Source: Bacteroidia bacterium (lineage in GTDB: Bacteria; Bacteroidota; Bacteroidia; Bacteroidales; JAPLDU01). Taken from it: 64,000 nucleotides of DNA. The notes beneath the pieces are model-generated. The model had not been told where the DNA came from. It searched no databases and saw nothing but the letters and a program-made list of their open reading frames with translations. Of this stretch, positions 35,242-53,824 are shown one piece after another. The first letter of the stretch is position 1. Each line of letters begins with the position of its first letter. The translations under genes and the position numbers were made by a program. The stretch lies in contig JAPLDU010000001.1 in NCBI GenBank assembly GCA_026391255.1, positions 42,901 through 106,900 of the forward strand, written 5' to 3'.

Positions 35242-36363
35242 CTAATTATTTGATAAATTCTCCCGGAAGTAATAAAATAATGCCAGTGGTCTGTACACAG
35301 CGTGTGCAAACTTTGAAAATGCAAACAGGAGTACCAGTTCCATTGAAATAATGGTATGCACTAGTAAAATGTAGTGATTTGCAGGATGGTTAAAAGTAAA
35401 AAATACGGATATTTCCATCCAGAAGCCTGTAAATCCTGCTATCCAAAGAAACCATAGGAAAACGTTATCGGCAATATTTGTCTCTGCATAAGACCTTGTG
35501 GCTTTCCTGCTGCGGTAAAGGAGCATCATGCTTGTGCCATAAATCAGAAATAAACCGGCCAGGGTTCCCAATATGCGGGCAGGCCACCAGGTTGTGGTTG
35601 CCGGATCTTTCAACAGAAAATCAAGTAAAGTGGCTGCAAGTAAACCAATAAACCCCCACATCACCGACCAGTGAATAAACCATGGTTTCTGAAAAGCAGG
35701 TTTGTCCTTCCAGTATGAATCTTCTTCCAGGTCGCATGTCCGGTAACGTTTCATGGTGGCTAATTCGCCAAATACTTCTTTCCAAGAACTAAGACAGCTG
35801 TTTTTCTTTGCTTCACCTGATTTATTACTTTTCAGCCTGAGGAACATGTTCAAAAGCCCCCAGATGATTGACATTCCGGTAATAGTGAATATAACCAGTC
35901 CCATGTTATGGATCACAGCGTATGGGATCATTTTAAATATCCACCTCGATACAACATGATCTGGTTTCAGGGTAAAAAGAAAAACCCCGAGTACTAATGC
36001 CATGATTGATGTAAACAGGATGAATAAAAGCTTGTTTTTGAACAATAACTTTGTTAGGCCGGTAGGTTCGTAGCTGGCAATGGCGTAACGATGCAGGGCT
36101 GCCATGTAATTACCGGGTGCGGCCTGCCTTGGGCAGGTTTCGGAACAATCACCGCAGGCATAACACAACCATAATTCTTTGCTTTTGAGGATTTCTTCTT
36201 TTAATCCTAACATACCGTATCGTATGAACATGCGGGGGAAGTTAGCATCATTTGCCGTTAATCCACATATAGCAGTGCAATTGCCACAATTAAAACAAGC
36301 ATTGAAATCGCTGGCTCCGTATTTTGTTATTTCGGATGCAAAACCCGGATCAATTCTGGTCAT
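35242..36363 (-). CDS. QmoC-like: HdrC-type 4Fe-4S domain fused to cytochrome b-type membrane domain
   Basis: N-terminal CFNCGNCTAIC and CYACGDCSETCP; about six hydrophobic helices with His residues C-terminally. Confidence 0.85.
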   Translation of the reverse strand: MTRIDPGFASEITKYGASDFNACFNCGNCTAICGLTANDANFPRMFIRYGMLGLKEEILKSKELWLCYACGDCSETCPRQAAPGNYMAALHRYAIASYEPTGLTKLLFKNKLLFILFTSIMALVLGVFLFTLKPDHVVSRWIFKMIPYAVIHNMGLVIFTITGMSIIWGLLNMFLRLKSNKSGEAKKNSCLSSWKEVFGELATMKRYRTCDLEEDSYWKDKPAFQKPWFIHWSVMWGFIGLLAATLLDFLLKDPATTTWWPARILGTLAGLFLIYGTSMMLLYRSRKATRSYAETNIADNVFLWFLWIAGFTGFWMEISVFFTFNHPANHYILLVHTIISMELVLLFAFSKFAHAVYRPLALFYYFRENLSNN

Positions 36364-38353
36364 GTTGTATATTCTTCAGTCTGTAATAATAATATTCATC
36401 GGAATCATCCATCCCATCAGCCTCAACCAGGCTGTATTTATTCATTGTCATCAGGTGATAAGTCAGGACATTGGCAGGTACATCAAGCTCTTTTACCAAT
36501 GCAGGTATAGTCTTTGATTCCTTCTGCAGAGATGCTGATATTCTTAGCCATAACTGCGGCTGGTCTTTCATTTCAGCCCCGGTAACTGCACTTTGTTCAT
36601 CTTCACTTTCTGCGGATTCTTTGAGTTCGACTTTCTCTGAAAATCCGTCAATCATTCCTTCGATTTCAGCATTCGAATACTGAGCTATGTCAATGGCATC
36701 GTTAGGGCAAACAGGTGCGCAGATACCACAACCCTTACAAACCGCTTCGTTCACTGAGGCAACTGTTTTTCCGTACATTTCCAATGGATGAACAGCGTCG
36801 TATTCACAGACTTCAGCGCATTTTCCGCACCAGACACAGGTATCAAAATTCACTCTTGCAATGACGGGTTCAAGTTGAATAGTAGGATTTTTCGTGAGGG
36901 CATTGATCTTAACTGTTGCAGCCATGGCTGATTGTACCGATTCTGTGATATTCTTCGGTCCCTGGCATGATCCGCCGATGAATACTCCATTGATCACTGT
37001 TTCTACAGGTCTTAACTTTGGATGTATCTCATTAAAAAACTTATCATTTCCGACCGGTATCTTCAGTTTTCCCGCTAATTCCGCTGTATCTTTTCCGGGA
37101 ACCAACCCGGTGACAAGTACCACAAGATCAGTCTCCAGTTCGAGGTCCTGTTTTCTTGTAAGTTCATCCTTCACCTGAATAAGGAGGCGATGCTTTGAAT
37201 TACTCACTTTGGGAGGTATTTTCTCATCAAATTTCAGGTAAATATCCCCGTTCTTTGATGATTGTTCATACAATACTTCCTGTTTCCCATAAGTACGAAT
37301 ATCCCTGTAAAGGTGATATACCAAAACTGATTTGAATTTATTATGAACAAGCAGTGAACTATGGATGGCAGTAGTGCAGCAGACCCTGGAACAATATTTG
37401 TTTTCGCCTTTGGTCTGCCGCATTCCAACACAGTAAATAAAAGCTATGCTGTTTACCTTTTTATTCTGATAATTGAGAGTATCACCGCAGTTATTTAATA
37501 GCTCTCTAAATTCAGGCAGGGTAATTACATTAGAAAGTTCACCATATCCATATTCACCAATAGCCGGCTGGTAATGGTCATATCCGGTGGTGACAAGAAT
37601 AGCTCCCACTTTTAAATTCAGTATTTCATCACTAATTCTGACTTCAACATCGAAATTTCCGAGACTGCCGCTGACCTTACCAATACCGGCATTAGTAAAC
37701 AGGGTGATATTTTTATCGGATTTCACTTTGGTCAACAGTGCGGAAATAATTTCATCACCTGTTTTTCCATCCATAAACATTTCTCCCCAGCGGGCAATGT
37801 GCCCTCCCGGTTTGTATTCCTTTTCGATCAGGTACACCTGGTTTCCCATTTGTGACAAACCTATTGCTGCACGCATACCGGATACGCCTGCACCAATGAC
37901 TACTGCTGCCCTTGTTGAACTGACTTCAATATTTTCAAGCGCTTCAGAATGTGAAACTCTGTTGATACCTGCCAGAATGAGACCTGCTGCTTTCTCACTT
38001 GCTTCTGATGGGGTGTCTGAATGAGCCCATGAACATTGCTCACGTATATTCACCTGGGTATAATTGTAAGGATTTAATCCGGCTCTTATTGCCACATTGC
38101 GGAAAGTATGCAGGTGAAGTTTAGGAGAGCAGGAAGCAACAACAATACCATCAAGCTTTTGATCAACAATATCATTGACCATTTCCTTCTGGTTTGAATC
38201 GGCACAGGCAAACATCACATTCTTTGCGACCACAACCCCGTCCAGTCCTTTCACAATATCTTTTATCTGTGATACATCCACATAGTCGGAGATATTTCCC
38301 CCGCAATGACAGATGTACACTCCTATCCGTTGTTTTTTCTCCATGAAACTCAA
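36350..38353 (-). CDS. HdrA/QmoA-like iron-sulfur flavoprotein with C-terminal ferredoxin and winged-helix-like extension
   Basis: VYICHCGGNI, VIGAGVSGMRAAIGLSQMG, YCSRVCCTTAI, CVWCGKCAEVCEYDAV, CKGCGICAPVCPNDAI. Confidence 0.88.
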   Translation of the reverse strand: MSFMEKKQRIGVYICHCGGNISDYVDVSQIKDIVKGLDGVVVAKNVMFACADSNQKEMVNDIVDQKLDGIVVASCSPKLHLHTFRNVAIRAGLNPYNYTQVNIREQCSWAHSDTPSEASEKAAGLILAGINRVSHSEALENIEVSSTRAAVVIGAGVSGMRAAIGLSQMGNQVYLIEKEYKPGGHIARWGEMFMDGKTGDEIISALLTKVKSDKNITLFTNAGIGKVSGSLGNFDVEVRISDEILNLKVGAILVTTGYDHYQPAIGEYGYGELSNVITLPEFRELLNNCGDTLNYQNKKVNSIAFIYCVGMRQTKGENKYCSRVCCTTAIHSSLLVHNKFKSVLVYHLYRDIRTYGKQEVLYEQSSKNGDIYLKFDEKIPPKVSNSKHRLLIQVKDELTRKQDLELETDLVVLVTGLVPGKDTAELAGKLKIPVGNDKFFNEIHPKLRPVETVINGVFIGGSCQGPKNITESVQSAMAATVKINALTKNPTIQLEPVIARVNFDTCVWCGKCAEVCEYDAVHPLEMYGKTVASVNEAVCKGCGICAPVCPNDAIDIAQYSNAEIEGMIDGFSEKVELKESAESEDEQSAVTGAEMKDQPQLWLRISASLQKESKTIPALVKELDVPANVLTYHLMTMNKYSLVEADGMDDSDEYYYYRLKNIQHDQN

Positions 38354-38541: not shown

Positions 38542-41292
38542 TCAAATTCTTTCATTCAGGTAACCGGCCACTTCTGAGGCAGCACATCCTGCTGACAATA
38601 TCGAATCGGGAATATCCATTGGTGCTGCAGCAGTTCCGGCAACAAACACTCCATCGACCGATGTTCTGGCCGGGCTTGTCATTACATCTATCTGGCGTAT
38701 GAAACTAAACTGGTCAAGTTCCGGCTGATTGTCACCGAAGGCCTGTACAATTTTATTATCAGGCAAAACACCTACAGACAAGACTACCAGGTCGTGAACC
38801 ACTTCTTTTACCTGGCCGGTCTCAATATTCTCATATCTCAGGATAAGGTCTCCGCTTTTATCGTCCTTTTCCTTAATCCTTGCAACCTTACCTTTGATAA
38901 AATTTACTCCCATAGATTTCGACTGCTGGAAGAATTCTTCGTATCCTTTTCCGAAAGCCCTGATATCGATGTAATAAATGGTAATATCGGCCATGGGCAA
39001 GGCACCCATTAACAATTGTGCCTGTTTGATAGAATACATACAGCAAATCTGTGAGCAAATGGGGTTGTTGGCACTGGCCATGCTGCAGGAGCGGTAATTT
39101 TCAAGGCTTGAATCACGTGATCCGGTACAAAGCACATAAGCTATATTTCCCGGTATCTTTCCATCACCCGGTCGCAGGACATTATTAAATGGCCTGGTCG
39201 GAGCAATGAGACGGTCCATCTGCAGTGAATCGATTACGTTGGGATAGATGGCAGAGCCGTACTGAGGTTTAGATTCAGGATTAAACAAATTGAATCCAGT
39301 TGAAATGATTACTGAACGGGCGTTTGCAGAAATGCTCTCTTCCTTTTGTGAGAAATCAATGGCATCGGCCGGACAGGCAGAAATGCACTGATGACACTCA
39401 CGGCAGTTGCTGCAATCAAGACACCTGTTTGTACTCTGCCTGACCTCGTCTTTAGTGAATGTCAGTTCCACATCCTCGAAATCCCTGATCCTTTCTGAAA
39501 CAGGACGCATTTTTTCTTTCAGTCCGGGAAGCAATAAAATATCTTTACGTTCCAGTATCTTGTTTTTATCAACCGGAGCAAGCTTATCGCCAAATTCATA
39601 CTCTCCGGGATTTTTACCTTCCAGAAATTTGTTCATATAAAAAGCGGCCCTCTTTCCTTGCCCAATAGCTTCAATGATGGTTGACGGGCCTGTCACCGAA
39701 TCACCTCCTGCGAATATCCATGATGTGTTTGTTTGTAAAGTTTTATCATTTACTTTTATGGCTCCGTCTTTGCCCAGTGTCAGTTCTCTGCCGAACACCG
39801 ATGTTGTCGGATACAGACCAATGGCTTCAATGACGAAATCAACATCAACCGAATATTCCGAACCTTCAATGGAAACTGGTCTTCTGCGCCCGCTTTCGTC
39901 TTTATCACCAAGTTTCATCCTGATTAGCTCAGCTTTAACTACATTACCGTTTTCGCCTATAAATCGTACAGGGTTACTCAATTCATTAATTTTGACACCT
40001 TCTTCCTCAGCCTCATGAATCTCTGCTTTCCAGGCCGGCATTTCATTTCTGCTCCTGCGGTAAACAATGTTCACTTCTTTTGCGCCGAGCCTGATGGCAG
40101 TGCGAGATGCATCCATGGCTGTATTACCTCCACCTATTACCATGACCTTTTTACCTTCCAGGCTGATCTTATTCCCTATCTTTGATTCACGCAGAAAATC
40201 AAGGCATGAAACAATTCCTTGTAGTTCTGAGCCTTCCACATTCATCTTACTTGTTTCGTGAGTACCCACAGAGACAAACACGGTATCAAATCCAGCATTT
40301 TTAAGAGTTTCAAGATTTTCAACCTTGTGGTTCACTTCATATTCAACACCCAGCGACAATATGTTCATAATATCCCTGTCGACAATGGCTTTTGGAAGCC
40401 GGTATTCGGGAAGGGTAAGCTTCAGCATGCCACCAAGTTCGGAAGCTGCTTCAAATAATTTAACCTGGTGTCCGGCCAGTGCAAGAAAATAGGCTGCTGT
40501 GAGCCCTGCAGGCCCTGATCCCACCACGGCAGCTTTTTTGCCTGATTTCTTTTCAATTGAAATGGCAGGAGGAACAGGGTATTTTGTATAGTAATCTTCA
40601 GCAAAGAATCTCTTTATCCTGCGTATATCAACTGATGCTTCAAGGCTTGCACGTGTACACTCACTTTGGCAGGGAGCATAGCATGCACGGCCCAGACTGC
40701 CTGGTAATGGAGCATCCTCAAGGTGAAGCATCATGGCATCTTCATATTGTCCGTTCCTGACTAATGAAATATAGCCATATGGCTTTATACCTCCGGGACA
40801 GGCTGCGATACATGGCGCAGATGAATCCTGCCTGTCAATGACTGCAATACGGGGGTTTGCCAGGCTGAATGGTATATAGGCCACTTTTCGGCCTGCCAGG
40901 TAACGGTTGTATTCATCTGGTCTGACTTCAGGGCATGCCTGCTCACATTCCTGGCAGCCGGTACATGCTTCAGGGATAACATACCTGGGACGCTTATTGA
41001 TATTAATGCTGAACTCTCCGTTATTTTTCCTGATGCTCTTAATATCACTGTTCAGAAGCACAGTAATATTCGGATGTCTTGCTGTCTCTGACATCTTTGG
41101 AGTTGTGATGCAGGCAGCACAATCGAGAGTAGGAAATACCTTGCTTAACTGAATCATTTTCCCGCCAATGGAAAGTTCTTTATCAACCAAGAGAACTTTA
41201 TAATCCATATTGGCCAGGTTGAGCGCCGCTTCCTGCCCGGCAATCCCTCCGCCAATAACCAATGTGTCGAATGTCTGATTGTTATTTGTCAT
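38542..41292 (-). CDS. HdrA/QmoB-like flavoprotein with inserted GltD/NfnB-like FAD-NAD(P) oxidoreductase module
   Basis: N-terminal IGGGIAGQEAALNLA and CTGCQECEQACP; internal AAVVGSGPAGLTAAYFLALAGHQVKLFEA and VMVIGGGNTAMDASRTAIRLGAKEVNIVYRRSRNEMPA; C-terminal HdrA half CRECHQCISACPADAI, ICSQICCMYSIKQA. Confidence 0.88.
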   Translation of the reverse strand: MTNNNQTFDTLVIGGGIAGQEAALNLANMDYKVLLVDKELSIGGKMIQLSKVFPTLDCAACITTPKMSETARHPNITVLLNSDIKSIRKNNGEFSININKRPRYVIPEACTGCQECEQACPEVRPDEYNRYLAGRKVAYIPFSLANPRIAVIDRQDSSAPCIAACPGGIKPYGYISLVRNGQYEDAMMLHLEDAPLPGSLGRACYAPCQSECTRASLEASVDIRRIKRFFAEDYYTKYPVPPAISIEKKSGKKAAVVGSGPAGLTAAYFLALAGHQVKLFEAASELGGMLKLTLPEYRLPKAIVDRDIMNILSLGVEYEVNHKVENLETLKNAGFDTVFVSVGTHETSKMNVEGSELQGIVSCLDFLRESKIGNKISLEGKKVMVIGGGNTAMDASRTAIRLGAKEVNIVYRRSRNEMPAWKAEIHEAEEEGVKINELSNPVRFIGENGNVVKAELIRMKLGDKDESGRRRPVSIEGSEYSVDVDFVIEAIGLYPTTSVFGRELTLGKDGAIKVNDKTLQTNTSWIFAGGDSVTGPSTIIEAIGQGKRAAFYMNKFLEGKNPGEYEFGDKLAPVDKNKILERKDILLLPGLKEKMRPVSERIRDFEDVELTFTKDEVRQSTNRCLDCSNCRECHQCISACPADAIDFSQKEESISANARSVIISTGFNLFNPESKPQYGSAIYPNVIDSLQMDRLIAPTRPFNNVLRPGDGKIPGNIAYVLCTGSRDSSLENYRSCSMASANNPICSQICCMYSIKQAQLLMGALPMADITIYYIDIRAFGKGYEEFFQQSKSMGVNFIKGKVARIKEKDDKSGDLILRYENIETGQVKEVVHDLVVLSVGVLPDNKIVQAFGDNQPELDQFSFIRQIDVMTSPARTSVDGVFVAGTAAAPMDIPDSILSAGCAASEVAGYLNERI

Positions 41293-41687
41293 TCCAGTTC
41301 AGCTAATATCCTGGTAAAATTGGCCATATGGCTGGCAAACGGCTCAGCACAAACTGAACAGATCGCTGCCATCCTGATACGTTTCGGGCTGATATTTGCC
41401 TCCTTCATTAACCGCTGTGATTCCTCAATGATCATGTTGGTATATTCTGGACACTTAGAGCTGTAGGAACACTCATGCCCATCAGCAGCAATGAATACCC
41501 CATCGAAACCCTGGTTGAAAGCATGCATGATCCAGCGAGGTTTGATGCCTGAAGAACAAGGCAGACTTATCACATAAACAGAAGGTGAGTAATGGATTTT
41601 TCTCAATCCTGCCTGGTCAATGCCCGGATCAGAAATTTTATCAGTTGAAAATACCAGTATCCTTGGTCTGGTATGTTGATTTCCCAT
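41289..41687 (-). CDS. MvhD/FrhD-like delta subunit
   Basis: PRILVFSTDK...YVISLPCSSGIKPRWIMHAFNQGFDGVFIAADGHECSYSSKCPEYT; 4-nt overlap with the HdrA-like gene. Confidence 0.83.
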   Translation of the reverse strand: MGNQHTRPRILVFSTDKISDPGIDQAGLRKIHYSPSVYVISLPCSSGIKPRWIMHAFNQGFDGVFIAADGHECSYSSKCPEYTNMIIEESQRLMKEANISPKRIRMAAICSVCAEPFASHMANFTRILAELE

Positions 41688-41851: not shown

Positions 41852-42103
41852 TCAGGCTTTTTTCAGGAAAAGTCTTGAATAACTGTCTTCTTCAATGATT
41901 CCGAGGAATTCATGTGTCATTTTCTGACACCATTTCGGAATGTCATTTTTGGTTCCTTCATCTGATGAATAAATCTCCATGATCTCACCTGATCCGATTT
42001 CCCCAATTCCTTTTTTTGCGGCCAGCAGTGGTCCGGGACAGGCTGTTCCTCTTGCATCAACAATTGTAGCTGGTTTTATTCCTTTTAATTCTTCTGTAGT
42101 CAT
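41852..42103 (-). CDS. tusA: TusA-family sulfur carrier protein
   Basis: IVDARGTACPGPLLAAKKGIGEIGSGEIMEIYSSDEGTKNDIPKWCQKMTHEFLG. Confidence 0.9.
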   Translation of the reverse strand: MTTEELKGIKPATIVDARGTACPGPLLAAKKGIGEIGSGEIMEIYSSDEGTKNDIPKWCQKMTHEFLGIIEEDSYSRLFLKKA

Positions 42104-42114
42104 TGTATGTTATT

Positions 42115-42666
42115 TTAAATGAATAATTGTATTTTACTTTCCTGAGCATCTGCAAGGAATGTTGCCACGCCACAAACTGTTAAACCGGGGTAATCAATCA
42201 TTTCTTCCTTTTTGAATCCCATCAGGTTCATCGACATCTCGCATATATTGATCACAACCCCAAGTTCACCGGCTGTTTTAATCATTTCAGGGAGAGATGC
42301 AACCTTGTGTTTTTTCATGATGCCTTTGATCATGGATGTTCCCATACCGCACATGTTCATTTTCGAGAGTTTTACCTTTCTGCTTCCTTTGGGAAGCATC
42401 ATTCCAAACATCTTTTCCACCAGATTTTTCCCTTTCCCGCTTTTTTCAGGATCACGCAAAGCTGAAGTAGCCCAGAATGTGAAGAATAGTTTGACTGTCA
42501 TATCATAAGCTGCGGCACCTGTCGCAATAATCATTGCAGCAAGAATTTTATCCAGGTCGCCGGAAAATACTACCATTGATAGCTGATCCTTTGTACCGGT
42601 TTCAATCTTATATACTTTGGAAGTCAATTCCATCAACTGCCTTTCAAAATCAGGGGTCATAGTCAT
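42115..42666 (-). CDS. DsrE2-like (DsrE/DsrF/DrsH-like) protein
   Basis: VVFSGDLDKILAAMIIATGAAAYDMTVKLFFTFW..., MNMCGMGTSMIKGIMKKH, CEMSMNLMGFKKEE. Confidence 0.85.
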   Translation of the reverse strand: MTMTPDFERQLMELTSKVYKIETGTKDQLSMVVFSGDLDKILAAMIIATGAAAYDMTVKLFFTFWATSALRDPEKSGKGKNLVEKMFGMMLPKGSRKVKLSKMNMCGMGTSMIKGIMKKHKVASLPEMIKTAGELGVVINICEMSMNLMGFKKEEMIDYPGLTVCGVATFLADAQESKIQLFI

Positions 42667-42742
42667 GTATATTAATTTATATATATAGATTTATAAATAT
42701 TTGCAATGTTACAAAGTATATAAATGCTTTAAAAATTATATA

Positions 42743-42758
42743 TGTGCTTTATATCACA
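42743..42758 (-). promoter_or_regulatory. Candidate Crp/Fnr-family operator upstream of dsrE2
   Basis: Minus strand TTGTGATATAAAGCACATAT; 18/20 identical to the palindromic site at 48438-48453. Confidence 0.6.
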
Positions 42759-42773
42759 ACACAATGTGCAATT

Positions 42774-43946
42774 TTACACATTGCGATTTTTGCCAATAGC
42801 AGCAATATCTGCAAGGGCATTTATTGCCGTATCGATATGATCCTCAGTATTAAATGGCCCTATACTTAACCTGACAGTACCATGAATTTTATCAGTTCCA
42901 AGCAATTCATGAACCATTGGCGCACACTGGAGTCCGGTTCGTACTGCAATATTGTAATCTACGTCAAGTAAAGTACCCACATCGCCTGAGTCGAAGCCTT
43001 TGATGTTCAGACTCAGAACAGGATTATGGTGGATTATACTTCCTGCGCAATAAATAGTTATGTTCTCAATATTCTGCAGACCATTTAGAAGTTTGTTCCA
43101 AAGAGCCATCTCGTGGTCATGCAGTTTATCAATCCCTCTTTCTAGTATCCATTTAACACCTGCATTAAGTCCTGCAACCCCAAGTATATTAAGTGTACCA
43201 CATTCAAGTCGGTATGGATATTCATCGAGGTGTGTTTTTTGAGCAGAACGAACCCCGGTTCCACCGTAGCGCGAATGGCGCACATTTACTCCTTCCATTA
43301 CGTATGAACCGCCTATTCCTGTCGGCCCCATCAGGCATTTATGTCCTGTGAACACAATTATATCAATTCCCATTTTTTTCATGTCGATAGGTATTGCTCC
43401 GGCGCTCTGGCTTGAATCTACTACAAACAGAACTCCATGTTCTTTACATATCTTACCAATTTCCTCAAGGGGTTGAATTGTTCCTATCACATTTGAACAA
43501 TGGTTCACAACTACCATTTTTGTATTAATGCGTAAGGCCTTTTTTATATCGTCAGGTTCGACGTAACCTTGTGAATCAAATGGGATGTAGGTCACATTTA
43601 TTATTTTATCAAGGCTTAAATGATATAATGGCCGCAGTACTGAATTATGTTCGAGCATGGTTGTCACCACGTGGTCACCTGGCTCAGCAAGCCCCTGCAA
43701 AATCATATTTAGTGAATCGGTGGCATTATAACTAAATGTAAGGCGGTTCGGGTCATCTCCGTTAAAAAGACCGGTAAGCAGTTTCCTGGTTTCCTGTACA
43801 AGGCTTTCTGTTTCAATTGCAGCATCAAACCCGGAACGACCATGGTTAACACCATGCTCACGGTAAAACTTGCACATGAAATCGTACACAAAATCAGGTT
43901 TTGGGAATGTTGTAGCTGAATTATCCAGGTAAATCAGATTGCTCAT
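42774..43946 (-). CDS. Cysteine desulfurase-like class V aminotransferase
   Basis: IYLDNSATTFPKP, VVDSSQSAG, FTGHKCLMGPTGIGG (PLP Lys), VRTGLQCAP (candidate catalytic Cys). Confidence 0.88.
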   Translation of the reverse strand: MSNLIYLDNSATTFPKPDFVYDFMCKFYREHGVNHGRSGFDAAIETESLVQETRKLLTGLFNGDDPNRLTFSYNATDSLNMILQGLAEPGDHVVTTMLEHNSVLRPLYHLSLDKIINVTYIPFDSQGYVEPDDIKKALRINTKMVVVNHCSNVIGTIQPLEEIGKICKEHGVLFVVDSSQSAGAIPIDMKKMGIDIIVFTGHKCLMGPTGIGGSYVMEGVNVRHSRYGGTGVRSAQKTHLDEYPYRLECGTLNILGVAGLNAGVKWILERGIDKLHDHEMALWNKLLNGLQNIENITIYCAGSIIHHNPVLSLNIKGFDSGDVGTLLDVDYNIAVRTGLQCAPMVHELLGTDKIHGTVRLSIGPFNTEDHIDTAINALADIAAIGKNRNV

Positions 43947-44095: not shown

Positions 44096-45394
44096 TCAGA
44101 AATTAGTTTTATGGGGAATAATAGCTTCCGCTACTATTTCGGCCATGGTCATCAATTTTATTCCAAGTTTATAATAAATGTTAACCTGTGTAAGCTGGTC
44201 GATACAATTGTGGCATGGAGTCACGACAATTTTGGCTCCTGTTTGCCTTATCTGTTCAGCTTTTATTACGGCTGCTTTCATCCGTCGCTCATTGAACTCG
44301 CTCATGGCAAGCTGACCGCCGCCTCCTCCACAGCAGAAATTATCAATTCCGTGAGGCTCCATTTCTATAAATTGTTTTACGAACTGTTTCAGAATATATC
44401 TTTGCTCGTTAATTACACCACCATTTCTAACCAGGTTACACGGGTCGTGAATCGTAACCGGTACTTTAATTTTATCAGGGTCGAGATTTATACGGCCTTT
44501 GCGGATATAATCAGCAATGCACTCAACCGAACTTATCACTTTGAACGGAAATTGCTGCTTAAGGTAATTCGGAGCCTCCCAGCGAAATGCCCTTGTACCA
44601 TGTCCGCATTCTGCAAGCACCAGCGTGTTGCAATCAAGATGTTTCATTTCTTTTCGCAACCGTTCTGCAATAATAGCTGCCTCTTTGTTGTTACCTGAAA
44701 AATATGCATAATTGGTCACATCGTACATTTCTGATGACAATGTCCAGCTTTCGCCGGCGAAATAAAATATTTTTGCCATTGCTGAAATCGACAACGGATA
44801 AAATTTGGGTTCCCTTGGATTAAGTGTATACAAAATTTCTTTTCGTTTTTCATTAACCGGAATACGTGAAAGGGGATCACCTGTCTCATCCATCAGTTCC
44901 TCTTCCATCCATTTAATAGTATCAAGAAATTCTGTTAAAGGGATACTCATATTATTTCCGCTTTCCAGCGCTGCATTCACCGTCGATTGCAATGTTGCAG
45001 GAACAAAGCCCATTTCGGAAAGCATTGTCCTTCCCAGGCGGACAAGGTATGGTACATCAACACCGGTTGAGCAATGCATAGAACATCTGCCGCACATGGT
45101 ACAAGCTCCAAAGAGCAGATCGGTCATCTCTGATGCAAATTCGCCGTTCAGTTCTCTTGCATTTACCAGCTTTGGAAACACTTTTCCCTGCCATGTGCAG
45201 TAACGCCTGTATACAGATGTTACAAGATCGGCTTTCCTGCCTGGCATGAACCGCTCATCTTTTGTGGCCAGATAAAAAAAACAGCTTTCCGCACAAAGAC
45301 CACAGTGCACACAACTGTTCATATTTGTAATCATCCTGCTGTCTGGATGATTATTAAATATCCCGGGTTTTATTTTTGGTGTATTTCCCTGCAT
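44096..45394 (-). CDS. DsrK/HdrD-like Fe-S oxidoreductase
   Basis: CVHCGLCAESC, CTMCGRCSMHC; CCG-type motifs HDPCNLVRNGG and NFCCGGGGGQLAM...VTPCHNCIDQL. Confidence 0.87.
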   Translation of the reverse strand: MQGNTPKIKPGIFNNHPDSRMITNMNSCVHCGLCAESCFFYLATKDERFMPGRKADLVTSVYRRYCTWQGKVFPKLVNARELNGEFASEMTDLLFGACTMCGRCSMHCSTGVDVPYLVRLGRTMLSEMGFVPATLQSTVNAALESGNNMSIPLTEFLDTIKWMEEELMDETGDPLSRIPVNEKRKEILYTLNPREPKFYPLSISAMAKIFYFAGESWTLSSEMYDVTNYAYFSGNNKEAAIIAERLRKEMKHLDCNTLVLAECGHGTRAFRWEAPNYLKQQFPFKVISSVECIADYIRKGRINLDPDKIKVPVTIHDPCNLVRNGGVINEQRYILKQFVKQFIEMEPHGIDNFCCGGGGGQLAMSEFNERRMKAAVIKAEQIRQTGAKIVVTPCHNCIDQLTQVNIYYKLGIKLMTMAEIVAEAIIPHKTNF

Positions 45395-45410: not shown

Positions 45411-46055
45411 TTATTTTTCGTTTACCGGTGGCCATACTCCGCGTCTTCCAAAGAAAAGCCCGAGATGATAACGGGCTGCAAAGAAATATACGGCATGTTT
45501 AAGCTTTCCTACCGGAAAATAAAGGAAAAGCAAACCTGAAACAATGAAATATGTAAAGTATGCAGATGAAAAATTAAGTACAATGACTGTTGTTACCTGA
45601 AAACCTGTAACAAGGATATTGGAAATGTAATCATCAGGATTTGATAATTTGCGCATCCTGGAATTGGTCATCCTTTTTATCAGAATTCCGATTCCACACA
45701 GGGCAGACGAGACCAGCACAATTGATGTAATAAAAATAACAGGTTCTGAAGGTGATAACTGCAGCCAGATGAAAGGGAAAAAAATAAGCGACAGGAATGT
45801 TCCGGCATGATAGATAATGCCTGCGGCATATGTTGGGAGATGCAAAAATGCTGTTTCTTTTCTTGCCGGGTTCATTGATGAAGTATAGGCGTACCTGATA
45901 CTTTCAGAAATGTTGCCGGCTGGTACTGAAAAGTCCTCAGGACGGCCAGGAGTAACAAGCCGGATTATCAACCGAAGGCAGGTTATACAGGCTAACACAG
46001 GCGGAATTATTGCAACCCAGTAATACCATTTCATAGCACGGATAGTTAAACGCAA
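45411..46055 (-). CDS. DsrM-like cytochrome b-type membrane subunit
   Basis: Hydrophobic helices with His (IIYHAGTFLSLIFFPF; KLKHAVYFFAARYHLGLFFGRRGVWPP) and position next to DsrK/DsrC. Confidence 0.78.
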   Translation of the reverse strand: MRLTIRAMKWYYWVAIIPPVLACITCLRLIIRLVTPGRPEDFSVPAGNISESIRYAYTSSMNPARKETAFLHLPTYAAGIIYHAGTFLSLIFFPFIWLQLSPSEPVIFITSIVLVSSALCGIGILIKRMTNSRMRKLSNPDDYISNILVTGFQVTTVIVLNFSSAYFTYFIVSGLLFLYFPVGKLKHAVYFFAARYHLGLFFGRRGVWPPVNEK

Positions 46056-46363
46056 CCGTCAGGTTTAGGTAATCCTGCGACGCGGCATGCCCCGCGGGCA
46101 GGGCCAAGAGGAAATAACTCATATATCTCACGGAGTTTTAGTCCTGTTTGCTGGCAGATTACACGTATCATAGGCGCCATTCCTGTTTCTTCCCAACTTT
46201 TACGAATGATTCTGACAATTGCCCAATGTTTTTCATTTAATTCGGTAATGCCGTCGTATCCGGCAAATAACCGTGCTACTTCATCATTCCAAATGTCAGG
46301 CGTAAGTAAGAAACCATCACCATCAATCTCAAAATTTCTACCTTCAATTTCAATGCTTGGCAT
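46046..46363 (-). CDS. dsrC: DsrC-family sulfur carrier protein with both C-terminal cysteines
   Basis: EIDGDGFLLTPDIWNDEVARLFA..., C-terminus FPLGPARGACRVAGLPKPDGCV. Confidence 0.9.
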   Translation of the reverse strand: MPSIEIEGRNFEIDGDGFLLTPDIWNDEVARLFAGYDGITELNEKHWAIVRIIRKSWEETGMAPMIRVICQQTGLKLREIYELFPLGPARGACRVAGLPKPDGCV

Positions 46364-46374
46364 AATTCGTTATT

Positions 46375-47862
46375 TTATAAAATAAACCATGATTCAACTT
46401 GTATCGATGATCTGTCTTTTCTTTTATTAACAAATTCATTGGTTCGCCTGTCATATTCATAATCCCTGCCCCATTCATCATAATGATTCCGTATCTGCCT
46501 GATTGCATCGATAATGTAAATCACATCTGTATCAGACATAGTCGGGTGAAGCGAAATTCTAACCCATCCCGGCTTTTCTGACAGGTCGCCAGCATTTATC
46601 TTACCTGTGATTTTTCGTGATTTTTCATAGCTGACATCAAGCAGGTAATGTCCGTATGTTCCGGCACATGCACATCCGCCCCTTGACTGAATTCCAAACC
46701 GGTCACTCAGTGACTTAACGATCAGGTTATAATGGATACCGGGAATATAAAATGAGATAACACCAAGACGGTCTTTAATATGATCAGCAAGTATATGAAT
46801 ATCAGGTACTGATTGCAATTCCCTGAAAGCAATATTAACCAGTTGATCTTCCCTTTCATGAATTTTTGAAGTATTCATTTTGTTTTTTAAATCAATACAC
46901 AGGGCTGTCTTGATTGCTTGCAGAAAACCAGGGGTACCGCCGTCTTCACGAATCTCAATATTATCAATGAATTTATATTCACCCCAGCGATTAGTCCAGT
47001 CAACTGTGCCGCCCCCCGGTTGGTCAGGTGATTTGTTATTGTATAGTTCTGAATCAAAGATAAGAACTCCTGATGCCCCGGGACCACCCAAAAATTTATG
47101 TGGTGAAAAGAAGATGGCATCAAGTTTTTCCCGTGGGTCATCCGGATGCATATTAATATCATCATATGGAGCTGAGGCAGCAAAGTCAATAAAAGCAAGG
47201 CCTCCGTATTCATGCATCAAGCGGGCCATTTCATGATAGGGAGTACGAATACCTGTAACATTTGAACAAGCGGAGAATGATCCGATCTTACGCTTCCTGT
47301 CTTTGAATTTTTTCAGTGCATCTTCCAGTTTGTTCAGATCAACAAGCATATCTTCTCCTGGCTCGACTACCACCACATCTGCGGATGTCTCGTACCAGGT
47401 GGTCTGATTGGAGTGATGTTCCATATGAGTGACGAATATCACAGGTTTTTCTGTTTCCCTGAGACATTTACTGTGTAATATATCTCCGCAAAGTTTTAAT
47501 CCGAGGATTCTCTGAAATTTAACTACAGCTCCTGTCATGCCAAATCCGGTCGTCAGGATAACATCATCAGCGTTGGCATTTACATGTTCTTTAATCTTTT
47601 TATGGGCAAGATGGTAGGCCTGTGTCATCAGCTTCCCGGTTTCACTGGTTTCAGTGTGTGTGTTACCGATGAATGGACCGATATGTTCAGTGATCATTTC
47701 TTCAATAGGCCTGTATAAACGACCACTTGCAATCCAGTCGGCATAGACCATTTTCACCCTGCCATATGGAGTCTGGTAATACTGGTCAATACCAATGATA
47801 TTATTGCGAAATGTACTGAAGTATTGCTCTGAATGGACTATTTCTTTGTCTGTAAGGAACAT
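46375..47862 (-). CDS. Class V aminotransferase / cysteine desulfurase-like protein
   Basis: VILTTGFGMTGA, FIDFAASAPYDD, FFSPHKFLGGPGASG (PLP Lys), SRGGCACAGTYGHYLL. Confidence 0.85.
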   Translation of the reverse strand: MFLTDKEIVHSEQYFSTFRNNIIGIDQYYQTPYGRVKMVYADWIASGRLYRPIEEMITEHIGPFIGNTHTETSETGKLMTQAYHLAHKKIKEHVNANADDVILTTGFGMTGAVVKFQRILGLKLCGDILHSKCLRETEKPVIFVTHMEHHSNQTTWYETSADVVVVEPGEDMLVDLNKLEDALKKFKDRKRKIGSFSACSNVTGIRTPYHEMARLMHEYGGLAFIDFAASAPYDDINMHPDDPREKLDAIFFSPHKFLGGPGASGVLIFDSELYNNKSPDQPGGGTVDWTNRWGEYKFIDNIEIREDGGTPGFLQAIKTALCIDLKNKMNTSKIHEREDQLVNIAFRELQSVPDIHILADHIKDRLGVISFYIPGIHYNLIVKSLSDRFGIQSRGGCACAGTYGHYLLDVSYEKSRKITGKINAGDLSEKPGWVRISLHPTMSDTDVIYIIDAIRQIRNHYDEWGRDYEYDRRTNEFVNKRKDRSSIQVESWFIL

Positions 47863-47939: not shown

Positions 47940-48269
47940 CTAAGGGCAACAGCAATAATTTGATTCCCTGTGAAGATATTCTGCCAGAAAATGAATGACA
48001 GCCTTAGTAATGATCTGATCATCAGAATTTATGATCTCTTTATTTTTTAAATTTAACTGCTGGCGGTATTTATCTTCAATTTCCTTTACTAAAATCCCAT
48101 CGCAATCAGTTATGTTATCATCTGAAATCCCGGGGTTTCCTGAAATGTTCCAGCGTAACTGCTGCTCAGTGATCTCACCTGATTTGATTGTAAGGATGAG
48201 AAACCCTTTGGCAGACCCAAAGTTGCGTGTCATCATCAACCCATCATCAGTCGGAATGGCTAATTTCAT
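47940..48269 (-). CDS. NifX/NifB-like (dinitrogenase FeMo-cofactor) domain protein
   Basis: MKLAIPTDDGLMMTRNFGSAKGFLILTIKSGEI...DCDGILV; start chosen at MKLAIP rather than 48410. Confidence 0.75.
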   Translation of the reverse strand: MKLAIPTDDGLMMTRNFGSAKGFLILTIKSGEITEQQLRWNISGNPGISDDNITDCDGILVKEIEDKYRQQLNLKNKEIINSDDQIITKAVIHFLAEYLHRESNYCCCP

Positions 48270-48437
48270 ATATTTCAGATTATTGGTTAATAAACAAATA
48301 TCACTTTTACAAAAGTACTCAGTAATAGTGCTGTAGGAGGTAAAGGAAATGTGATTATAACTATAATAGGTTGTGAGAGATGACCTGATATTATATACGT
48401 AAATACACATACATATATGACTATGTAATTAATAAAT

Positions 48438-48453
48438 TGTGATATATATCACA
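48438..48453. promoter_or_regulatory. Crp/HcpR-type operator palindrome
   Basis: TGTGATATATATCACA, perfect 16-bp dyad TGTGA-N6-TCACA just upstream of the Crp/Fnr gene and near TAAGTTTG / TACTTTTG -7 boxes. Confidence 0.75.
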
Positions 48454-48475
48454 TATTGTCATTTTCTAAGTTTGC

Positions 48476-49204
48476 ATGATTACTTTTGCAACAACAAAAA
48501 CTCCGATGTTTGAATTTGAGAATAAAAAGACAACGTGTCCTGATTGTAAGGATAAATCCTGTGCAGCTGCCATCCTGAGCAGGGAAGAGCTTGAAATGAT
48601 CAACTTTAACAGCCATGAGAGTGTGGTCAAGAAAGGAGAAATCATCCTTCATGAAGGTTCTCTGACTTCTCATATTATATACCTGAAGAGCGGGCTTGCC
48701 AAGGAGTTTGTAAAACCCACACCTGAGTCAGAGCAGATACTGTCCATCGTAAAAGAACATACCTATTTAGGTTTGTCCTCTTTATTTGGTGACAGGATCA
48801 ATCACTATTCCTATTCGGCACTGGAAGATGTAAAGGTGTGCTATATTGATATTGCAGTTTTTATCAATCTGGTCAGGAAGAACGGAAATTTTGCATATGA
48901 AATATTGGTATCGGTGAGTCGTGACAGCCTGAACAATTTTCACAGGTTTATCAATCAACTGCATAAAAAGATTTATGGTCGTGTAGCTGATGGGATTCTG
49001 TATTTCTCCAGGATCATTTACGAAAATACCACCTTCTCCCTTCCCATGTCAAGGCAGGAATTTGCTGATCTGATTGGTGTATCGAGGGAAAGCGCCACCA
49101 GGGTGCTCATTAAATTCAAGGATGAGGGGATCATCAATATTAAAGGCCACCTGATTGAAATAAACAAGGTGGAATTACTCGAACAGATCAGCAGGAAAGG
49201 TTGA
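48476..49204 (+). CDS. Crp/Fnr-family regulator with Fnr-like cysteines
   Basis: cNMP-fold and HTH MSRQEFADLIGVSRESATRVLIKFKDEG; N-terminal CPDCKDKSC and central VCYI. True start may be ATG 48506. Confidence 0.9.
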   Translation: MITFATTKTPMFEFENKKTTCPDCKDKSCAAAILSREELEMINFNSHESVVKKGEIILHEGSLTSHIIYLKSGLAKEFVKPTPESEQILSIVKEHTYLGLSSLFGDRINHYSYSALEDVKVCYIDIAVFINLVRKNGNFAYEILVSVSRDSLNNFHRFINQLHKKIYGRVADGILYFSRIIYENTTFSLPMSRQEFADLIGVSRESATRVLIKFKDEGIINIKGHLIEINKVELLEQISRKG

Positions 49205-49239: not shown

Positions 49240-49935
49240 TCAGCCTGTTTTACTGATTTTTTCAAGCCTTGTTTTATCAATAATCACAATGTCTTTTTCT
49301 CTGAGGCTGATCACAGAATCTTTCTCAAGTCCTTTAAGCAGCTTTACAGTACTTTCGGTTGATATACCTGCAAAGTCGGCAATATCCTTTCTTGAAAGTA
49401 GTTGGAAAATCTCCGGATTTCCGGCCTTTAATTGATTAATATAAAGCAAAGTATCAGCCAAACGACCATTCATTTGTTTAAACAGAACATTTTGCAAAGA
49501 GTGAAACAGGTTTGTGTTTTGTTCACAATATCGTTTTATGATATTGAATCCAAACAGTCCATTTTGCTTTACCACTTCTTCAATAGCTTCCTTTTCAACT
49601 AAGTAAGCCTGGCATTCTGTAAGGCATACAGCCGAATAATTATAGGTGTTCTTTAAAAAAACAGATGACAAACCGACAAATTCACCTTTAGTTATGATCT
49701 TCAGGTTATAACTTTTATCATGTTCACTTTCAATATACTGTTTGACAAATCCGTGAATGATAAACAATATGTATGATGCAAAGACTCCCTGTTTGGTCAG
49801 AGTATCCCCTTTCCTGAAAAGCACCTGTGTCTTGCTTTTTCTGACAAGTTCCGCCTCGTCAGACGAAAGCATCTGAAAGCATGGAGCCTGTATGTCACAA
49901 ATGAAATCGTGATTGGTTTCGACTATTGTCTTCAT
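49240..49935 (-). CDS. Crp/Fnr-family regulator (second)
   Basis: FRKGDTLTKQGVFASYILFIIHGFVKQYIE...; HTH LSRKDIADFAGISTESTVKLLKGLEKD. Confidence 0.88.
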   Translation of the reverse strand: MKTIVETNHDFICDIQAPCFQMLSSDEAELVRKSKTQVLFRKGDTLTKQGVFASYILFIIHGFVKQYIESEHDKSYNLKIITKGEFVGLSSVFLKNTYNYSAVCLTECQAYLVEKEAIEEVVKQNGLFGFNIIKRYCEQNTNLFHSLQNVLFKQMNGRLADTLLYINQLKAGNPEIFQLLSRKDIADFAGISTESTVKLLKGLEKDSVISLREKDIVIIDKTRLEKISKTG

Positions 49936-51898: not shown

Positions 51899-52285
51899 TT
51901 AATGGTTGCATTGCTGGCCGTTGCCCTGACCATGATGTTCCTGATGAAGGGAACAACTTTCACCGCTATCAGAAATCCTGCCTTCAATAAACTGTTTTAC
52001 AAGGTCGGCGGCATTTCCGGAGCAGCCCCGAATTACCTGAATGCCCCATTGATTTAGTACATTGATTGCACCGCCACCAATGCCACCGGCAAGCATCGTT
52101 GTAACTCCCTGTTCAGATAAAACACCTGCAATATTTGACTTGCATCCGCAACCCTGTTCAGATTTTAAAAATTGAACATCGACTATTTCATTTTTTTCTG
52201 AGATGGTATAAACTCCGTAAAATTCACAATGACCAAAATGGTCGTCTACCTGGTTACCTCTGGTAACTGGAATTGCTATTTTCAT
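51899..52285 (-). CDS. NifX/NifB-like (dinitrogenase FeMo-cofactor) domain protein
   Basis: MKIAIPVTRGNQVDDHFGHCEFYGVYTI...GCGCKSNIAGVLSEQGVTTMLAGGIGGGAINVLNQWGIQVIRGCSGNA; start chosen at MKIAIPV. Confidence 0.88.
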   Translation of the reverse strand: MKIAIPVTRGNQVDDHFGHCEFYGVYTISEKNEIVDVQFLKSEQGCGCKSNIAGVLSEQGVTTMLAGGIGGGAINVLNQWGIQVIRGCSGNAADLVKQFIEGRISDSGESCSLHQEHHGQGNGQQCNH

Positions 52286-52311
52286 ATTATTTAAATTATT
52301 GATTAGTAACA

Positions 52312-52953
52312 TTATTTATCAAAAATACCTGAAGGTACTGCATTTGCAGTTACCAGAAATACAGGAAATTCTTTTTCATTTCCGCTATTCCCGGGTCTTT
52401 TAATTACAAAACAAGGTTTCAGATTAATATTATGAAATCCTGTCAGTTCAAGAAGATGAACTAAACTGTAAGGATCAAAACCATGATGACCCGTAAAATC
52501 AGCATCATGAAACGATCCGTCTTCTTTGTATAGATCAGCAATAGCCAAATGTCCGCCAGGGTTTAATAAATGATAAAACTTCAAAAACATTTTCTCAATG
52601 TTGTCAACGTGATGAAGAGCCATTTGGGAGAAAATATAATCGAACTTTTTTCCCGGGTATTCATCCTTTTCTAAATCAAAAAGAAGAGGATGAAGATGAT
52701 CAATTCCGTTTTTGGCAAGTTTTTCCCTTGCAGTTTTGATCATCTCAACTGAACTATCCATCAGGATTATCTCAGAAAAATAGTCCTTAAGTGTGAAGCT
52801 AAGCAGACCTGTGCCTGATCCAATTTCCAATGCGGTTTTCTGCACATCTAATTCACCTCTGGCTATCAGCTCTTTTGCAATTGCTTCAGTCCTATCGAGG
52901 TGCATCTGGTTTTTGTCCCAATCCCCGGCAACCTGGTCAAAATGGTTTGCCAT
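52312..52953 (-). CDS. Class I SAM-dependent methyltransferase
   Basis: ALEIGSGTGLLSFTLKDYFSEIILMDSSVEMI; FDYIFSQMALHHV. Confidence 0.9.
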   Translation of the reverse strand: MANHFDQVAGDWDKNQMHLDRTEAIAKELIARGELDVQKTALEIGSGTGLLSFTLKDYFSEIILMDSSVEMIKTAREKLAKNGIDHLHPLLFDLEKDEYPGKKFDYIFSQMALHHVDNIEKMFLKFYHLLNPGGHLAIADLYKEDGSFHDADFTGHHGFDPYSLVHLLELTGFHNINLKPCFVIKRPGNSGNEKEFPVFLVTANAVPSGIFDK

Positions 52954-53398: not shown

Positions 53399-53824
53399 TC
53401 AAATCTGTTCAGTAATTGCCGGATTGAGATTTATCAGTTCAGTGCTTCCATACATTTTGCAATCGGTACATTTAATGTGATTTTCAGCGCCTTCAATTAA
53501 TTTATAGCACTTTTTACATCTGAACCATTCTTTTTCAAATTGATAACTTCCACCTTCAATTAAAATCGCTTTACCTTCTACAAATGCCTTGGTTATTGTC
53601 TTTAATGCTTTGTTGTAAACCCGTGTTAAAGTTGGCCTGGAGACATTCATCTGCTCTGCTGCCTGTTCCTGAGAAAGCATTTCATAATTAACCAATCTGG
53701 TACTTTCGTATTCCTCAAGAGTCAACCTGATAGTCTCCATTTTACACAATGGCATTCCAAAAGGTTTAAATCCCTTCATCAGAGGTGGCTCACAGATTTT
53801 CCTGTTTTTTTCCGGTCTTGCCAT
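53399..53824 (-). CDS. DUF134 predicted DNA-binding protein
   Basis: ARPEKNRKICEPPLMKGFKPFG...ETIRLTLEEYESTRLVNYEMLSQEQAAEQMNVSRPTLTRVYNKA plus C-terminal CxxC pairs. Confidence 0.87.
   Translation of the reverse strand: MARPEKNRKICEPPLMKGFKPFGMPLCKMETIRLTLEEYESTRLVNYEMLSQEQAAEQMNVSRPTLTRVYNKALKTITKAFVEGKAILIEGGSYQFEKEWFRCKKCYKLIEGAENHIKCTDCKMYGSTELINLNPAITEQI

Follow-up and report, generated by a model that had tools for sequence, protein, structure and literature searches.

A phased half-site array proposed to connect a putative FNR-like regulator with divergent sulfur genes in a Bacteroidia genome

Within the analyzed stretch of DNA (64 kb in total, here referred to as the window) the gene of a Crp/Fnr regulator is located divergently from a run of minus-strand genes, spanning from a NifX-like to a QmoC-like protein. 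The genes and the putative regulatory features are listed in Table 1. The gene order was kept in sister genomes, some of which carried the DsrE2 part alone or lacked the DsrC-Tmc part. Distant homologues of the regulator were mostly orientated divergently from DsrE2-TusA-HdrD with a palindrome in between. A search of the window's genome with the dsrA model gave no match, and in this genome the QmoA/HdrA-like protein with its GltD-like module is found inside an island together with DsrC, DsrE2 and TusA. Beyond thioredoxin genes, a second NifX/MrpORP-like protein and a DUF134 protein are encoded at 51899-52312 and 53399-53824 (both on the minus strand). This pair recurs near several of the orthologous loci.

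Table 1. Genes and predicted regulatory features of the analyzed locus (window coordinates)
Feature	Position	Strand	Remarks
QmoC-like membrane subunit	35242..36363	-	qmoC 2e-55, below curated cut-off
QmoB/HdrA-like flavoprotein	36350..38353	-	
QmoA/HdrA-like flavoprotein	38542..41292	-	916 aa, embedded GltD-like NAD(P)H module
MvhD/FlpD iron-sulfur protein (HdrD-labelled)	41289..41687	-	PF02662
TusA	41852..42103	-	
DsrE2 sulfur carrier	42115..42666	-	PF13686 2e-48
Weak -7-like box of DsrE2 promoter, TAACATTG	42704..42711	-	5/6
Proximal member of tandem pair, TGTGATATAAAGCACA	42743..42758	-	9/10; 22 bp from distal member
Distal member of degenerate tandem operator pair, TGTGTAAAATTGCACA	42765..42780	-	8/10; predicted
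Cysteine desulfurase family protein	42774..43946	-	TIGR01977, above cut-off
TmcB/HmcF/DsrK-like iron-sulfur protein	44096..45394	-	
TmcC/HmcE-like membrane subunit	45411..46055	-	weak, 7e-07
DsrC/TusE family protein	46046..46363	-	
SufS-like PLP enzyme, cysteine desulfurase superfamily	46375..47862	-	
NifX/MrpORP-like protein, first gene of divergent operon, start MKLAIPTDDG	47940..48269	-	weak, MrpORP 1e-05 for longer ORF
-7 box of divergent sulfur operon, TACTTTTG	48310..48317	-	in register with array
Array slot 5, half-site TCACA	48350..48354	-	begins 37 nt upstream of -7 box
Array slot 4, half-site TCACA	48372..48376	-	in phase, 22-bp steps
Array slot 3, unmatched in window species (GTATA)	48394..48398	-	
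Array slot 2, degenerate half-site TCATA	48416..48420	-	22 bp from TCACA of palindrome
Operator palindrome, TGTGATATATATCACA	48438..48453	.	predicted, common to regulator and divergent sulfur operon
-7-like box of regulator, TAAGTTTG	48467..48474	+	operator centre at ~-33.5 if used
Second -7-like box of regulator, TACTTTTG	48481..48488	+	operator centre at ~-47.5 if used
Crp/Fnr regulator, FNR-like	48506..49204	+	232 aa from ATG 48506; Pfam HTH_Crp_2, cNMP_binding, Crp

The palindrome had already been described in a first-pass annotation of this DNA, and both its sequence and its coordinates were exact. No other sequence of the window matches TGTGA-N6-TCACA at 10/10 positions, and the site is one of two perfect 16-bp palindromes within the 64 kb. 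According to the base composition, 0.07 exact matches were expected per window and approximately 1e-4 per 120 bp. Looser matches (up to two mismatches) were at background level with 40 found and 36.5 expected. The total genome (4.08 Mb, 161 contigs) contained 2 exact matches versus ~4.7 expected, and the pattern by itself is therefore no mark of a large regulon. The second match lies inside a repeat-rich coding sequence, and a large CRP-like regulon was rejected on these grounds. Sites with one mismatch were present 19 times across the genome and 6 times in the control, the site at 42743 being among them. That it is conserved upstream of the orthologues is what sets the predicted operator apart from chance.

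For this comparison 14 close relatives of the regulator (49-78% identical) and 27 distant homologues (34-46%) were used, and with the window the close set counts 15 members. Both sets are supported clades in the tree (100/99 and 99/96, respectively). A site had to match at least 9/10 positions within 300 bp upstream. Such a site was carried by all 15 members of the close clade (exact in 13, 9/10 in the other two) and by 21/27 members of the distant clade, the remaining 6/27 having no site within 300 bp; most of these loci originate from metagenome-assembled genomes, and the counts are inflated by kinship by descent and hence not independent. Absence of the palindrome upstream of orthologues had been named beforehand as the outcome that would speak against the proposed site, and the opposite was observed in both clades. 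The arms were kept while the central N6 varied between orthologues. The conserved sites have the form TGTGA-N6-TCACA, often TGTGAT-N4-ATCACA, and do not correspond to the FNR box TTGAT-N4-ATCAA. Far from the regulator, palindromes in the orthologue genomes were mostly TGTGAA-type pairs, besides the tandem pairs described below. Judged from this distribution, the operator is probably older than the split between the close and the distant clade.

It had also been proposed that the recognition helix of the regulator keeps the R-E-x3-R pattern of E. coli CRP. Presence of the palindrome tracks this R-E-x3-R helix. The genome also encodes four paralogues (25-34% identical) whose helices contain SKE, TKE, TES or TSN instead and lack an equivalent of CRP R180, and none of them has a site of at least 9/10 upstream. 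The pairing of palindrome and helix agrees with a published correlation between R180/E181 and the site bases G3/A6 (PMC1274295). Conservation together with this co-occurrence supports the palindrome as predicted operator of the adjacent Crp/Fnr regulator, in agreement with the earlier proposal.

The ORF of the regulator is also open from ATG 48476, where the first-pass annotation had placed its start. The TAnnTTTG box has been placed at -12 to -5 (PMC9723704), and this position was used here for all transcription starts, which are estimates; they come out at about 48305 and 42699 on the minus strand and at 48479 or 48493 on the plus strand. Either of the two -7 boxes therefore puts the transcription start of the regulator downstream of 48476. 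Since additionally the start Met of the orthologues aligns with ATG 48506, translation probably starts at 48506 and the upstream start is probably wrong.

The regulator belongs to the Crp/Fnr superfamily: PF00027, PF13545 and PF00325 scored over cut-off and the fold agrees. The curated Fnr model PRK11161.1 gave 52 bits versus a cut-off of 228 and the CRP equivalog PRK11753.1 gave 46 bits versus 266. The protein is thus not classed as Fnr by the curated model and at most works like FNR. Its predicted structure had a pLDDT of 86.5, with the first 10 residues of the model being unreliable, so that it does not extend to the cluster site itself. Best fold matches were FNR of Aliivibrio fischeri and 2gau of P. 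gingivalis, and A. fischeri holo-FNR ranked first in the fold search as the closest solved fold (TM 0.82; 2gau alike). In common with FNR of E. coli and A. fischeri the regulator has three N-terminal cysteines and a mid-protein cysteine aligned with E. coli C122, and according to the alignment its phosphate-binding stretch carries no cAMP-type RS motif. However, identity over the aligned length is only 23%, the third cysteine follows after 4 residues (5 in FNR), the recognition helix carries an R where CRP has R180, and TGTGA-N6-TCACA takes the place of TTGAT-N4-ATCAA as operator.

Three cysteines were conserved in 42/42 members of both clades. The FNR-type set of four, i.e. three N-terminal ones and one near E. 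coli C122, was complete in the close clade (15/15). Here the third N-terminal cysteine was present in 15/15, compared to 0/27 in the distant clade, whose members carried the other three in 27/27 and a shifted fourth, 17 residues further on, in 22/27. The presumed third Fe-S ligand is thus found either in a C-x2-C-x4-C arrangement (close) or ~17 residues later, and two members (L048 and L049) carry both positions and appear intermediate-like. Based on the conserved residues, C-x2-C-x4-C together with the mid-protein cysteine probably ligates a [4Fe-4S] cluster in the regulator. The protein is likely to be related to E. coli FNR and to sense oxygen or redox state, with O2, NO or the sulfur redox state as candidate signals.

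On the side of the sulfur genes the palindrome is followed by TCACA half-sites at intervals of 22 bp and in a single orientation, and the last of them begins 37 nt ahead of a TAnnTTTG box. In 12 loci, 21/22 of the TCACA copies lying between the palindrome and this -7 box were in phase, and none was found in TGTGA orientation. Counted from the beginning of the palindrome, the -7 box itself was located at 70, 114-115 or 136-137 nt, corresponding to steps of 22. Nine less redundant loci contained 14 in-phase half-sites versus 0.05 in shuffles, and 0/20,000 shuffles reached 14. In the same nine loci the half-site columns were 80% identical and the spacer columns 39%. At the divergent promoter of the distant clade a half-site was present at offset 33 in 14/17 and the box at offset 70 in 13/17, which gives the same distance of 37 nt between half-site and box.

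A related arrangement is found at the DsrE2 promoter. Six sister loci carried two palindromes 22 bp apart at the orthologous place upstream of DsrE2, with the last TCACA 37 nt before a -7 box that was exact in five and TATCTTTA in one. In the window the tandem pair (42743-42780) begins where the gene of the cysteine desulfurase ends at its 3' side (stop 42774), and the DsrE2 promoter of this species therefore overlaps the preceding gene.

We also searched 393 genomes of the order for the whole module at the DNA level, i.e. palindrome, half-site and -7 box at the observed spacings with one mismatch. The module was found in 31/393 genomes and the reversed control gave 0. A homologue of the regulator adjoined 29 of the 30 loci examined; the one exception belongs to a close sister and is its DsrE2 promoter. 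DsrE2, TusA or SufS was present within the examined stretch of ~1.5 kb in 22/30 loci. In 15 close genomes the pattern of two half-sites plus -7 box gave about eight exact matches, all of them in the two sulfur promoters, compared with 0 exact and 2 one-mismatch matches in the control.

On the regulator side, sequences and coordinates of the two -7 boxes were as previously given; they do not overlap as had been stated, but are separated by 6 nt. The sign of an autoregulation in the window is not fixed by them, since the candidate boxes give operator centres of either -33.5 or -47.5. In seven close members a CA[AC]CTTTG box puts the palindrome centre at -41.5. Members of the distant clade had the -7 box at offsets mostly of 22-25, with the palindrome centre at ~-27 to -30. 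Here the palindrome covers the core promoter and therefore should repress the regulator. Autoregulation via the palindrome is likely, with either sign compatible in the window species. The first-pass annotation had considered the regulator side alone and is incomplete in this respect: on its other side the palindrome starts the 22-bp-phased array of the sulfur operon. On that divergent side the last operator would be centred at ~-52.5 and the next at -74.5 relative to the estimated start, a layout which favours activation. Classical activator positions in E. coli are -41.5 and -61.5, and -52.5 is neither of them.

Taken together, we consider it likely that the regulator, bound to a phased array, controls the sulfur genes as well as itself. 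This reading builds on site conservation, helix correlation, 22-bp phasing, the fixed 37-nt distance, linkage to sulfur genes, cysteine conservation and the FNR fold. The adjacent FNR-type regulator would bind the palindrome as high-affinity site. Further dimers would be added cooperatively side by side on the same DNA face every 22 bp, at half-sites which keep the promoter-proximal TCACA alone. The last dimer would come to lie ~49 to 53 bp ahead of the point where the divergent operon starts and may activate the NifX-like, SufS, DsrC and Tmc-like genes. In sister genomes the second, tandem operator would act likewise on DsrE2-TusA-HdrD-Qmo, with this pair being degenerate in the window genome. 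On its other side the palindrome, which overlaps the promoter of the regulator or lies close to it, would mediate autoregulation, in the wider family probably by occlusion. More tentatively, and here we would hesitate to commit ourselves, a single palindrome could nucleate up to five dimers in 22-bp steps with the number of slots setting the response of the sulfur operon, and the third cysteine ligand could have moved between the sister clades.

Other explanations have to be considered. Side-by-side dimer arrays are able to silence promoters, and the array could form a repressing nucleoprotein filament under which the sulfur operon is repressed too. HcpR of Desulfovibrio has been linked to lower transcription of apsBA/sat and qmoABC (PMC1274295). 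However, the last half-site keeps a constant distance to the -7 box downstream of it and stays out of the region where a -33 element would lie, as would be expected of an activator, and repressing sites mostly overlap the core promoter; we regard repression as rather unlikely. Simple autoregulation alone, with the divergent operon under some other control, would account for the palindrome near the -7 boxes of the regulator in nearly all members, for its position over the core promoter in the distant clade and for three close-clade members (L048, L049 and L009) that have the palindrome without adjacent sulfur genes. It would leave unexplained why the half-sites and the -7 box of the divergent side strictly keep the register set by the palindrome, and why DsrE2 promoters located 5-6 kb from the regulator carry this module too, and is therefore judged quite unlikely.

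The sites might also belong to another Crp/Fnr paralogue, as the genome carries at least five related Crp/Fnr genes, one of them (49240-49935) directly adjacent. This is very improbable given that the other four helices (SKE, TKE, TES, TSN) have no R180 equivalent and no palindrome upstream, and that the operator module adjoins homologues of the 48506-49204 regulator in nearly all loci. Chance, or a DNA or RNA hairpin without any regulator, would fit the TATA-rich centre and the lack of genome-wide enrichment of the exact pattern. Conserved arms around a variable centre and a strict phasing across unalignable spacers argue against it, the module search contradicts it, and its probability is practically negligible.

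Autoregulation by a Crp/Fnr protein through TGTGA-N6-TCACA is already known from HcpR1 of Desulfovibrio, which was reported to regulate its own gene by binding (PMC1274295, PMC5701242). Compared by its published description, HcpR1 resembles the present regulator in family (CRP/FNR), in the operator wTGTGAnnnnnnTCACAw and in having predicted sulfur genes in its regulon (PMC1274295, PMC5701242), but its targets are hcp, nap and aps/sat instead of DsrE2-TusA-Qmo and SufS-DsrC-Tmc. An HcpR1-type operator was found upstream of the regulator's own gene here, a common feature that alone is no proof of orthology. The first-pass annotation had pointed to HcpR-type regulators as relatives in general. 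This was not supported, as the HcpR of Bacteroides (HcpR2) has the motif GTAACnnnnGTTAC and a predicted regulon of hcp alone (PMC1274295), and among the HcpR compared only Desulfovibrio HcpR1 shares TGTGA-N6-TCACA. Since the motif of the present locus differs from GTAACnnnnGTTAC and its neighbours are sulfur genes, an identity as HcpR was rejected. With E. coli CRP the regulator shares operator, R-E-x3-R helix and fold; it differs by the FNR cysteine pattern, by having no cAMP pocket signature and by a regulon that is small and local rather than global. The best solved relative by sequence profile is 2gau of P. gingivalis (6e-31, TM 0.85-0.90), with 24% identity and a helix (LSNMTVSNAIRTL region) without R-E-x3-R.

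In the literature covered, which left out most subscription journals, no paper was found on a regulator of DsrE2-TusA-HdrD-Qmo or SufS-DsrC-Tmc in this order, and a full-text search for a 22-bp half-site array, likewise outside most subscription papers, gave nothing relevant. For a Crp/Fnr promoter such an array is unusual. The locus provides a transcription factor, an operator and a set of targets that can be tested for the DsrE2-TusA-HdrD-Qmo and SufS-DsrC-Tmc genes in an order of the Bacteroidota. If its signal were defined, the regulator would furthermore provide a handle on the role of these sulfur proteins in a genome without a dsrA match.

Additional Crp/Fnr genes were observed at several of the loci. 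The second one in the window (49240-49935, minus strand) adjoins the regulator and has a different helix (STESTVK); its homologues (68-70% identical) also adjoin the regulator in three other loci (L021, L136 and L137). In locus L147 (G323:C7) two homologues of the regulator, 56% and 39% identical to that of the window, are located in a row beside an array-bearing NifX-SufS promoter. One genome carried both types of regulator, the close-clade type next to NifX-SufS-DsrC (L119, G153:C503) and the distant-clade type next to DsrE2-TusA (L088, G153:C13). The same arrangement was present in Prolixibacter (L118).
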